This document shows, piece by piece, positions 3,762 through 30,023 of a stretch of 40,497 nt of DNA. The position numbers and the translations under genes are program-made. The first letter of the stretch is position 1; each line of letters begins with the position of its first letter. The stretch comes from an uncultured Chitinophagales bacterium. Its GTDB lineage: Bacteria; Bacteroidota; Bacteroidia; Chitinophagales; JAHDHT01. Under the pieces are notes generated by a model that saw only the letters and a list, made by a program, of their open reading frames with translations, was not told the DNA's origin and searched no databases. Location: positions 1 through 40,497 of the forward strand of contig CALHDG010000113.1 in NCBI GenBank assembly GCA_938023075.1. Direction: 5' to 3'.

Positions 3762-4462
3762 AGTCTTCCATACAATATGGCAATTCAATAATTAGGTTTA
3801 CGCTGCAGTATGCCGATAGAAAAACTTTGGGCATACAAGTGCATCCCAACCGTAAAGTTTACGTTATTGCCCCAATAGATACTGATCTTAAAAAAATTAA
3901 AGCAAAGCTTAAAAGCAAAGCCAATTGGATATTAAAACAACAGGAATTTTTTCTCTCTTTTCATCCCTTAACACCATCAAGAAAATATGTTAATGGAGAA
4001 ACCCATTTGTACTTGGGTAAGCAGTATCGCTTGAAAATTATCCAATCAAAAAATGAAGATGTAAAACTAAAAAGAGGTTATATTGAAGTACATACAATCG
4101 ATAAAAAAGATACGCTTAAAATAAAATATCAACTGAACATTTGGTACACTAATAAAGCCAATGTTCATTTTACCAATTTGTTTAATAATTTATTGCCGAT
4201 TGCAAAAACTTTCTATCCGCAAAAAGTGGTTTTAAAGCATAGATGGCTAAAGAAAAAATGGGGAAGTTGTTCAACTAAAGGACAGATAACTTTAAACACA
4301 GAATTGATTAAAGCCCCAAAAAAATGCATTGAATATGTTATCATTCACGAGTTTTGCCATTTAGCCTATTTAAATCATAGTAAGTCATTTTATAATTTGT
4401 TAGATAAAAAATTACCAAATTGGAGAGTAATCAAACATCAATTAGAACATTTTATGGTTTAG
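3758..4462 (+). CDS. YgjP/DUF45-type (M48-like) zinc metallopeptidase
   Basis: This 234-residue protein has the zinc motif HEFCH at 197-201 (HExxH type) and a third likely ligand, H207, in NHSKSFY. Upstream comes a KWGSCSTKG segment near 167-175, which is typical of the DUF45/YgjP family (WGSC). The family is annotated as metal-dependent hydrolase or SprT-like peptidase; its substrate is not established. Its ATG overlaps the hsdR stop (ATGA, 3758-3761), so the two are translationally coupled and probably work together. From general knowledge, genes of this family are often found beside type I restriction loci. A role in turnover of the restriction subunit is only a guess. No signal peptide is seen, so it should be cytoplasmic. 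Confidence 0.85.
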   Translation: MKSSIQYGNSIIRFTLQYADRKTLGIQVHPNRKVYVIAPIDTDLKKIKAKLKSKANWILKQQEFFLSFHPLTPSRKYVNGETHLYLGKQYRLKIIQSKNEDVKLKRGYIEVHTIDKKDTLKIKYQLNIWYTNKANVHFTNLFNNLLPIAKTFYPQKVVLKHRWLKKKWGSCSTKGQITLNTELIKAPKKCIEYVIIHEFCHLAYLNHSKSFYNLLDKKLPNWRVIKHQLEHFMV

Positions 4463-4473
4463 ATAGATCAAAT

Positions 4474-4506
4474 TTTGTTTCATATTCCCCACAAACCCTA
4501 TATTTG
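4474..4506 (+). promoter_or_regulatory. folD promoter (TTTG / TATATTTG)
   Basis: TTTG at 4474-4477, a 21-nt spacer, and TATATTTG at 4499-4506 match the Bacteroidota promoter consensus. The ATG at 4511 lies only 4 nt after the -7 box, so transcription is expected to begin at or next to the start codon (leaderless). This also argues against the alternative upstream start at 4475. Confidence 0.65.
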
Positions 4507-4510
4507 CAAC

Positions 4511-5395
4511 ATGCAAATTTTAGACGGTAAATTACTATCGCAAAATATTAAAAAAGAACTGCACTACGAGGTGGAAAACCTAAAATCGGCGGGCAAAAGA
4601 CCGCCGCATTTGGCAGCAATTTTGGTTGGCAATGATGGTGCTAGTGAAACCTATGTAAACCACAAGGTAAAAATGTGTAAAGAGGTTGGTTTTGAATCGA
4701 CTTTGGTGCGTTTAGATGATAATATTTCGGAAGATTTTTTGTTGGAACAGGTGAGCCGTTTAAATACTGATGATGATGTTGACGGCTTTATTGTGCAGTT
4801 GCCCTTGCCGGCGCATATTAATGAGCGTAAAGTTACCTTAGCTATCGATCCAAAGAAAGATGTGGATGGTTTCCATCCGGTGAATATGGGTAGAATGATG
4901 TTGGGCATGTCAGCCTATTTACCGGCTACGCCATATGGTATTGTACAAATGCTAAAAGCTTATGAAGTGCCTACACAAGGGATGCATTGCACCGTGGTTG
5001 GCAGAAGTAATATTGTTGGCAAACCTATGGCAGTCTTAATGTCGCGTAACCACCAATTTGGCAATTGTACGGTTACTTTAGCACATAGCAGAACGCAATG
5101 TTTAAAAGATCATTTATTGCAATCGGATATTGTTATTGCCGCAGTTGGCAGACCTGAAATGATTACTGCCGATATGATAAAAGAAGGTGCTGTGGTGATT
5201 GACGTGGGCATTACCCGCGTAGACGATGCTTCCAAAAAAAGAGGTTACCGTTTAGCGGGAGATGTAAAGTATAAAGAGGTTGCGGAAAAATGTAGTTTTA
5301 TTACACCGGTGCCGGGTGGAGTTGGCCCTATGACGGTTATTTCATTAATGAAAAATACCTTAAAGGCGAACCAGAATTTAGTTTATACCAGTTAA
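4511..5395 (+). CDS. folD: Bifunctional methylenetetrahydrofolate dehydrogenase / cyclohydrolase FolD
   Basis: FolD interconverts 5,10-methylene-, 5,10-methenyl- and 10-formyl-tetrahydrofolate in the cytoplasm, supplying one-carbon units for purine and formyl-methionine synthesis. With the start at 4511 it is 294 residues, the usual length, and begins MQILDGK as family members do. A longer frame starting at 4475 would add 12 unlikely residues. Visible motifs are TYVNHK (Y48 and K52, the catalytic pair), VQLPLP near 95-100, KDVDG near 116-120, the NADP-binding GRSNIVGKP, and the C-terminal TPVPGGVGPMT. It appears to be a single-gene unit with its own promoter immediately upstream. Confidence 0.96.
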   Translation: MQILDGKLLSQNIKKELHYEVENLKSAGKRPPHLAAILVGNDGASETYVNHKVKMCKEVGFESTLVRLDDNISEDFLLEQVSRLNTDDDVDGFIVQLPLPAHINERKVTLAIDPKKDVDGFHPVNMGRMMLGMSAYLPATPYGIVQMLKAYEVPTQGMHCTVVGRSNIVGKPMAVLMSRNHQFGNCTVTLAHSRTQCLKDHLLQSDIVIAAVGRPEMITADMIKEGAVVIDVGITRVDDASKKRGYRLAGDVKYKEVAEKCSFITPVPGGVGPMTVISLMKNTLKANQNLVYTS

Positions 5396-5468: not shown

Positions 5469-5476
5469 TATTTTTG
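5469..5476 (+). promoter_or_regulatory. -7 box TATTTTTG before the Rpn-family gene
   Basis: A perfect TAnnTTTG box lies 24 nt before the ATG at 5501. I see no clear -33 TTG at the right distance. The box overlaps the alternative TTG start at 5474, which supports the ATG at 5501. Confidence 0.4.
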
Positions 5477-5500
5477 TTGACAGAAACGGATAGCCATAGA

Positions 5501-6334
5501 ATGACTGAGCAAAAAGCAAAATATATCAATCCTTTAACTGATTTTGGTTTCAAAAAATTATTTGGCAGCGAACCCAATAAAGTGTTGTTAATTGACTTTC
5601 TCAATGAAATATTACCGGAAAGAAAAATAAAAGATTTAACCTATTCGTCAGGTGAAAAACAAGGATTGACCGCATTGGATAGAAAAGCCATTTTTGACTT
5701 ATACTGCATAGGAGAAAATGGAGAACACTTTATTGTTGAAATGCAAAAAGCCAAACAAAATTATTTTAAAGACCGTAGTGTTTTTTATGCCTCTTTTCCG
5801 ATACAACAACAAGGCAAAAAAAACCAATGGGATTATAAATTAGAGCCCGTATATTCGGTAGGAATTTTAGATTTTATTTTTGATGATCATAAAAACGAGA
5901 AAGAACTGATGCATATTGTAGAATTAAAGAATCAACATTGTGAAGTGTTTTACGACAAATTGAAATTCGTTTATCTGGAACTTCCAAAGTTTACAAAAGA
6001 AGAAGAAGAATTAGAAACCCGTTTTGATAAATGGATGTATGTTTTTACGCACTTATCGCAATTGCAAAACCGTCCTAAAAAACTGCAGGAACGAATTTTT
6101 ACCAAATTATTTGAAGCTGCCGAAATCGCCAAATTCACACCCAAAGAACGAGCAGCCTACGAAGAAAGTTTAAAATATTACCGAGACATAAAAAATGTAG
6201 TCGATACCTCAAAAGAGGAAGGCAAAGAAGAAAGAAATTTTGAAATTGCTAAAAACATGAAGAAGGAAGGCTATACTAACAATCAGATAAAAAAAATAAC
6301 CGGATTAACAGAATATGAAATCGAAAATCTGTAA
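5501..6334 (+). CDS. Rpn family / PD-(D/E)XK nuclease family transposase-like protein
   Basis: The 277-residue protein (ATG at 5501; an upstream TTG would add 9 residues) starts with the family hallmark INPLTDFGFKKLFG. The nuclease core is D66 (AIFDLYC) followed by E80-M-Q82 (FIVEMQ), the PD-(D/E)xQ version of the fold, and then RSVFYASFPIQQQG. The C-terminus is a charged helix with a short Lys/Glu-rich stretch and a small helix-turn-helix-like end (GYTNNQIKKITGLTEYEIENL pattern). Family members, named Rpn for recombination-promoting nuclease, are DNA endonucleases related to the transposase_31 group. They spread among bacteria, and some act in phage defence or gene transfer. I see no flanking inverted repeats, so it is probably a stand-alone gene rather than an insertion sequence. 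Confidence 0.85.
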   Translation: MTEQKAKYINPLTDFGFKKLFGSEPNKVLLIDFLNEILPERKIKDLTYSSGEKQGLTALDRKAIFDLYCIGENGEHFIVEMQKAKQNYFKDRSVFYASFPIQQQGKKNQWDYKLEPVYSVGILDFIFDDHKNEKELMHIVELKNQHCEVFYDKLKFVYLELPKFTKEEEELETRFDKWMYVFTHLSQLQNRPKKLQERIFTKLFEAAEIAKFTPKERAAYEESLKYYRDIKNVVDTSKEEGKEERNFEIAKNMKKEGYTNNQIKKITGLTEYEIENL

Positions 6335-9578: not shown

Positions 9579-9626
9579 AGCAGCAAGATACGCTTTTTTT
9601 CAAAAAAGAAAAGATTAGGAATAATT

Positions 9627-9634
9627 CAAAAATA
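9627..9634 (-). promoter_or_regulatory. -7 box TATTTTTG before the M1 peptidase
   Basis: A perfect TAnnTTTG match on the minus strand lies about 49 nt before the ATG at 9578. The -33 element is weak: a TTG at 9661-9659 with a 24-nt spacer. It is plausible but unproven. Confidence 0.35.
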
Positions 9635-9819
9635 ACTATCCATTTGTAAGTGTCTAACCAACTACTACTCCTGTTTTAAATAGCTTCATTAAGCTGATGC
9701 TTTTATCATCGAACAACACTTCGGTTCTTCGTACAAAGAAAAACAGTAACAATCCAGAATAAGAAAGTATCAATCACTTTGATAAACTTATTGTACAAGA
9801 TAAGCTTACCCAAATAATA

Positions 9820-9990
9820 AAAGTAGTTGACACTTTTTGATATTTTAGTAGTGGTCGCAATTTTTGCGACCAATTTTTGTGCTTGCACAAAACAAATTTA
9901 TGATTTCTAAAACTACTTTTAGGTTAAAGCCTTTGTGCTATTAAACAGTAATTGAGTCTTTGGCATTTTAGGGTCGCAAAAATGGCGACC
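9820..9990 (+). repeat. Dispersed palindrome-bounded element, copy 1
   Basis: The core (9853-9990) starts with the perfect palindrome GGTCGCAATTTTTGCGACC (9853-9871) and ends with GGTCGCAAAAATGGCGACC (9972-9990), which has one mismatched pair. Just inside the left end is another hairpin, TTTTGTGC-TT-GCACAAAA. The interior of about 100 bp matches the interior at 29744-29843 in opposite orientation with only a few differences. To the left, AAAGTAGTTGACACTTTTT (9820-9838) also occurs at 29614-29632, but in the same orientation. There is no coding potential. It looks like a MITE- or REP-like mobile or invertible element. Confidence 0.8.
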
Positions 9991-10174
9991 TATATGGTCA
10001 AACGTATGGCGTCTGTTAAGCTTACTTTTCTATTGTATGTAAACTAACTTGATAAACTTGTCATTTTTTTATCTTATTATTCCTAAACTTGTCTAAAAAA
10101 TCCAACTTAACCTCAACTCTCTCTCAATAAATTAGTATTTTTCATCAGAACAAACTATTCTTGCAGTATACGTA

Positions 10175-29593: not shown

Positions 29594-29696
29594 GACAAGT
29601 TTATCTAAACAATAAAGTAGTTGACACTTTTTATTCAATATTTTCAGCATTTGTTTTAAGAGTATATAACAGTAAACAAAGCAGTTTAACCGAAGT

Positions 29697-29852
29697 GGTG
29701 GCAATTTTTGCGACCTAACGTAGAGGTCGCAATTTTTGCGACCCTAAAATGCCTAAGACTCAATTACTGTTTAATAGCACACAGGCTTTAACTTAAAAGT
29801 AGTTTTAGACATCATGAATTTGTTTTGTGCAAGCACAAAAATTGGTCGCAAC
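29697..29852 (-). repeat. Dispersed palindrome-bounded element, copy 2 (inverted core)
   Basis: From left: GGTGGCAATTTTTGCGACC (29697-29715, one base off the palindrome), spacer TAACGTAGA, then the perfect GGTCGCAATTTTTGCGACC (29725-29743). The ~100-bp core follows in reverse orientation relative to copy 1, ending in a half palindrome GGTCGCAAC (29844-29852). The internal TTTTGTGC-TT-GCACAAAA hairpin is kept. Compared with copy 1, one extra palindrome is present at one end and the other end is truncated. Confidence 0.8.
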
Positions 29853-30023
29853 AAGACTGTGCAATCCGCTTTGTTACCCTACACAGATTCGCAACAAGAT
29901 GGTTTAACCTACAGTTTTCAGTGAGCATTCTTTGTTGCAATAACGGCTTCAAGTCGTTTTCCTGCAAACCACCTACTTCGTAGTAGATGTGGTTGTTGGG
30001 TATAGTAATTTGAAATTAGCCAA

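Follow-up and report, generated by a model that had tools for sequence, protein, structure and literature searches.

Probable non-autonomous transposons carrying GTAG-tagged palindromes at a locus resembling an inversion in an uncultured Chitinophagales bacterium

Two copies of a palindrome-bounded repeat are encountered in the 40,497-nt stretch of an uncultured Chitinophagales genome that was analysed here (the window), and they raise the question how a core of about 100 bp can be flipped between the copies while the sequence flanking it is not. The sequence facts given in the preliminary description of this locus largely hold: the 19-nt flank AAAGTAGTTGACACTTTTT is matched exactly on the plus strand at both copies (9820-9838 and 29614-29632), the core of copy 1 (9861-9994) returns on the minus strand in copy 2 (29721-29854) with 94% identity over 134 bp, and GATAAACTTGTC occurs in opposite orientations at 10051-10062 (+) and 29594-29605 (-). 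The palindromes said to bound both cores are intact on one side of each, as GGTCGCAATTTTTGCGACC at 9853-9871 and 29725-29743, and defective on the other, where copy 1 has the imperfect GGTCGCAAAAATGGCGACC (9972-9990) and copy 2 retains the half GGTCGCAA followed by unrelated sequence; copy 2 moreover contains an extra degenerate palindrome (Table 1).

In this genome of 6.1 Mb, the whole-genome search that had been proposed for the core detected seven further copies of 87-94% identity, as well as many fragments. The terminal pattern GACAAGTTTATCNA was found 122 times compared to 0-1 times for its reversed control. Both results place the repeat far beyond chance. A known RNA family was considered and rejected, as no Rfam match reached the gathering score in the window, and 9700-10150 yielded sub-threshold matches only.

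Table 1. Annotated parts of the two copies in the window and of the element remnant beside copy 1
Feature	Positions	Strand	Remark
Family-B MITE R-end remnant, directly beside copy 1	9716-9792	-	reads AAGTTTATCAAAGTGATTGATACTTTC...CGAAGAACCGAAGT on the minus strand, like family-B R-ends
Copy 1, degenerate L-type transposon end, containing the 19-nt flank	9799-9847	+	14-15 nt between boxes; best match is the L-end of another interior type
Copy 1, GTAG tag and palindrome GGTCGCAATTTTTGCGACC, REP-like	9848-9871	+
Copy 1, inter-palindrome core	9872-9971	+	inverted with respect to the L-end
Copy 1, second palindrome, imperfect, tag decayed, inverse REP	9972-9995	-
Copy 1, R-type end, family C, tip GATAAACTTGTC	10001-10062	-	score of 76 to family-C R-ends, next family 55
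Copy 2, intact L-end, containing the 19-nt flank	29594-29632	+
Copy 2, family-A spacer from L-end to palindromes	29633-29697	+	same stretch in loci L002, L003, L005-L008
Copy 2, extra degenerate palindrome GGTGGCAATTTTTGCGACC	29698-29716	+
Copy 2, GTAG tag and palindrome	29720-29743	+
Copy 2, core	29744-29843	+	usual orientation relative to the L-end
Copy 2, half of a palindrome; the element breaks off here and has lost its R-end	29844-29851	-	compared with loci L002, L003, L008

Transposon ends and target duplication

Comparison of 84 complete elements, 37 from the same genome and 47 from other, mostly Saprospiraceae, genomes, revealed that the repeat is framed by an imperfect and asymmetric pair of inverted repeats. 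The L-end consists of an outer and an inner box, GACAAGTTTATC-N14/15-GTTKACACTTT, and the R-end has the same two boxes separated by a spacer of 6 nt; the terminal pattern counted above is the outer box with the bases that follow it. One L-end and one R-end were present in 83 of the 84 elements, and complete copies of the interior type shared by the two window copies, designated family A, start with GACAAGTTTATCTAAACAATAAAGTAGTTGACACTTTTT and finish with ...AAAGTGTCAACCACCTTGATAAACTTGTC.

A direct repeat of 8 bp matching at 7 or more positions flanks 56 of the 84 elements, compared to 0.67 expected (23 of 37 versus 0.2 in the same genome, and 33 of 47 versus 0.4 in the others), the expected counts being averages after swapping of flank partners between elements. 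The duplication was seen at this length only, with a mean flank identity of 0.81 at 8 bp versus 0.30-0.46 at other lengths in the same genome, and of 0.85 versus 0.32-0.48 in the other genomes. The duplicated target is AT-rich and mostly intergenic: long reading frames make up 61-73% of the flanks, and yet only 4 of the 84 empty sites fell inside one. The elements fold more strongly than shuffled sequence (median z of -4.1 in the same genome and -9.0 in the others). Short size (109-420 bp), hairpin interiors, lack of a transposase gene of their own, terminal inverted repeats common to many copies, and a target site duplication of fixed length across the family together characterize these elements as MITEs.

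The inner portion of the L-end corresponds to the 19-nt flank, and both ends have GATAAACTTGTC as their tip. As the ends face inward from both sides of a complete element, a flank in the same orientation beside a flipped core needs no special mechanism, which dissolves most of the paradox posed by the orientations. Both window copies are very probably decayed members of a family-A MITE of approximately 275 bp, a non-autonomous transposon with these ends and 8-bp duplication and with a cargo of GTAG-tagged palindromes, of which copy 1 would be a mosaic. Neither window copy has an 8-bp duplication of its own.

In the same genome, these ends surround several interiors, including families A, B (CCCGCTTTCCGC...GCAATCGGGGCTA), and C (beginning with GTCATGCCGGAAA), as well as others. 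Eight additional MAGs, of which seven bear the title Saprospiraceae and one Bacteroidetes, have the same ends with yet other interiors, and among a sample of 398 genomes of the order the ends were found in G158 and G370; a third match in that sample, G366, appears to be one of the eight MAGs. The single match to the end pattern in G370 is a MITE with a perfect 8-bp duplication and a long CCCCTAACCCCTAAAGGGG hairpin as interior (L187, 1501-1676). The strict end pattern had no match in viral contigs, where two matches to a looser pattern stood without a partner end and look like chance, and plasmids matched either end at chance level only. The end sequence had no match in the literature searched.

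Several variants were encountered along the way. A family-A MITE of 181 bp without core has its two palindromes directly adjacent (L087, approximately 4440-4590, contig C106). Family-C interiors, for example in L032 (1501-1794), carry CGTC at both outer hairpin ends (CGTCATGCCGGA..., CGTCATCGCAGA...), reminiscent of the CGTC-tagged REP pairs reported for Bacteroidetes. A second composite repeat of the same genome starts with GAGTGTGTGACATATCTGGTGCA, finishes with ...GTTGCACCTAATTTGTCACGCACTC, has inverted ends of its own and holds a family-C R-end inside (loci L015, L018-L021, L029, L059, and L104); it looks like a further type of MITE in which a second MITE is nested.

Palindrome cargo and candidate enzymes

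The cargo of family A is a head-to-head pair of palindromes of the form GTAG-W-GGTCGCAATTTTTGCGACC with GTAG on the outside, an arrangement that has been described for REP dimers (PMC3733652), and the GTAG tag is needed by characterised TnpA-REP proteins (PMC8266576). GTAG stands one base from the palindrome at exactly one side in 41 of the 55 palindromes and at both sides in one, adding up to 42 short palindromes flanked by the tag, against a background of 0.27% of nearby positions. The palindromes are dispersed over approximately 35 places of the genome, and 31 of the 55 are not near a MITE end; singles as well as pairs occur away from MITEs. Related genomes that were tested contained no or almost no GGTCGCAA palindromes, so that this REP is specific to the lineage of the window. 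A corresponding generalisation, that interiors in other genomes are free-standing REPs as well, was evaluated for the TTCACGGATT hairpin in one MAG (G061) and found no support there, because hairpin copies outside the main family also adjoin MITE ends, some of which are degenerate or one-sided. In two loci, family-B MITEs lie inside or right beside a GGTCGCAA palindrome (L014, 1240-1540; L013, 1500-1960) and the target sequence is repeated on both sides of them, indicating that the palindromes can serve as insertion targets.

A REP-associated transposase was among the enzymes for which, according to the preliminary description, the palindromes could be sites, and the genome does encode such enzymes. 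Nine Y1-transposase matches were detected in the genome, two of which exceed the NCBIfam cut-off for REP-associated tyrosine transposases (RAYTs), and neither of these genes is flanked by the palindromes, none of which lies within approximately 1.5 kb of them; the same absence of nearby palindromes applies to all nine matches. Because the anatomy is that of REPs and a RAYT gene flanked by matching palindromes was not found, the palindromes are designated REP-like and their mobiliser putative. A Y1-transposase domain (L247, C148:1552-1740) lies within an open frame of more than 1000 residues with a restriction/methylase-type look, possibly representing a domain insertion or fusion.

Fixed-length target duplications combined with terminal inverted repeats are typical of DDE-type transposases and not of Y1 enzymes, which points to a DDE-type enzyme for the MITE ends. 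Genes of five DDE families (IS1595, IS256, DDE_Tnp_1 including IS4, IS5 and others, ISL3, and IS66) were retrieved from the same genome, and those of four of these families also from up to eight other MITE-bearing genomes. Among the retrieved genes none lay between ends of the L and R type or formed an autonomous insertion sequence with matching ends, repeated copies of which may drop from draft genomes, and the loci examined contained no two MITE-type ends that form a pair at a distance of 0.6-5 kb and show a good duplication. Insertion sequences with many copies frequently go missing from draft metagenome bins, which makes the absence of the transposase weak evidence. In the window, an Rpn family recombination-promoting nuclease/putative transposase (PDDEXK_2; TIGR01784) is encoded at 5474-6334 (+), approximately 3.5 kb from copy 1 and with no sign of a link to it.

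The flipped core of copy 1

Core orientation relative to the ends is identical in the eight other family-A copies with at least one readable end (L002-L009, copy 2 included). It had been reasoned beforehand that the idea of an inversion would fail if the core always kept one orientation relative to the flank; this uniformity is seen in those eight, and copy 1 alone departs from it, with an L-type end on the opposite side and hence a core that is flipped with respect to end type. The left end of copy 1 is L-type, as its boxes are spaced 14-15 nt apart, and it scores best (71) with the L-end of another interior type compared to 65 for the best family-A end; it thus does not appear family-A-like, its type being fixed and its family only weakly resolved. 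The right end clearly belongs to family C. Copy 1 moreover carries many private substitutions and adjoins the family-B remnant. These sequence comparisons argue that copy 1 is a mosaic of related MITE families, rather than a plain inversion or evidence of a genetic switch.

According to the preferred reading, a DDE-type transposase supplied in trans would act at the L- and R-ends, and a REP/RAYT-type activity would spread, or would once have spread, the palindromes. Copy 1 may then have arisen by exchange between MITEs, with recombination or a template switch occurring at palindromes or in AT-rich stretches, or by entry of the palindrome pair into another MITE. Either route would leave a family-A core, flipped, between an R-end of family C and an L-end that probably does not belong to family A, and copy 2 would be an ordinary family-A insertion that later lost its right end.

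The second of these routes, which concerns copy 1 only and is a variant of the same explanation, would have a RAYT mobilise both palindromes together and bring them as one unit into a MITE that was already in place. We regard this as possible: the part shared by copy 1 starts and stops near the tagged palindromes while its flanks differ, single and paired palindromes exist away from MITEs and the genome encodes RAYTs, but besides the missing palindrome-flanked RAYT gene, the family-A core lies outside MITE ends in damaged copies only, and an acceptor MITE without the insert was not found. Either exchange between MITEs or entry of a palindrome pair fits copy 1 better than a simple inversion.

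It is unlikely that the palindromes are kept as transcription terminators or mRNA-stability hairpins, with the repeat pattern as a by-product. Such a role would suit the strong folding, the position of copy 1 in an intergenic gap, and the resemblance of 9852-9872 to an intrinsic terminator (two found in 9579-10174 versus 0.2 in shuffled sequence), but it leaves the conserved ends and the 8-bp duplications unexplained.

Somewhat less likely still is an in-place inversion, originally proposed to run across the palindromic ends, in which the 100-bp core would flip between the inverted palindromes, whether through a recombinase or through template switching, and whether as a phase switch or once only. 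The palindromes are indeed mutual inverted repeats, and the core of copy 1 does lie flipped relative to the end type, but this holds for one of nine readable copies, and the most decayed one, and no recombinase gene was seen beside copy 1 or copy 2. A plain inversion would have kept sequence of family A on both sides of the core, but in copy 1 the right side is clearly family C and the left side resembles the L-ends of other families more than those of family A, which makes such an inversion improbable. Misassembly of repeats, conceivable for a genome in 288 contigs of which several end inside MITEs, is very improbable, as copy 1 has private substitutions throughout (five transitions in the first 17 L-end bases, and an altered palindrome and tag) and so cannot have been stitched together from identical repeats.

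Relation to known mobile repeats and significance

Bacterial MITEs include NEMIS, RUP, ERIC, and Nezha (PMC3733652), and examples in Bacteroidota are known from Porphyromonas gingivalis (PMC4596501) and Cardinium (PMC9769881). The elements described here resemble these in being short, non-coding, intergenic and present in many copies, with inverted terminal repeats, a target duplication and a structured interior; they differ in that no parental insertion sequence was identified, the ends are markedly asymmetric, and the same ends surround unrelated interiors within and between genomes. The cargo likewise resembles GTAG REPs and their head-to-head dimers or BIMEs (PMC3733652, PMC8266576), given its dispersed 19-bp palindrome with GTAG one base to one side, occurring singly or in pairs with GTAG outside, whereas the approximately 55 copies found are fewer than in classical families, part of them lie inside MITE ends, and no RAYT gene is flanked by them. 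REP dimers within longer palindromes have been reported as GTAG-15 of Anabaena variabilis and CGTC-1 of Halothiobacillus neapolitanus (PMC3733652), which have in common with family A that a second inverted repeat encloses the REP pair; in those cases the enclosing repeat has been interpreted as a target palindrome, whereas here it is a transposon end pair with an 8-bp target duplication.

The elements are of an ordinary kind, and their assignment to a MITE family with REP-like cargo is well supported. Mildly new are the GTAG-tagged REP-like pairs in Bacteroidota and the asymmetric pair of ends, which occurs lineage-wide and for which no transposase is known. A far-reaching and rather doubtful extension is that a single transposase, not known to date, moves the conserved asymmetric ends lineage-wide in Saprospiraceae-related bacteria, with the interior repeatedly replaced by hairpin repeats of the genome itself, including GTAG-tagged REP pairs in either orientation.

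The locus illustrates that a mosaic of transposon parts can imitate an inversion. Moreover, its GTAG-tagged REP-like pairs belong to a phylum for which a 2013 survey listed CGTC repeats only, with GTAG repeats in Proteobacteria, Cyanobacteria, Chloroflexi, and PVC (PMC3733652). Finally, the conserved end signature and the 8-bp duplication rule provide a handle for hunting the missing transposase of a widespread group of Saprospiraceae MITEs.
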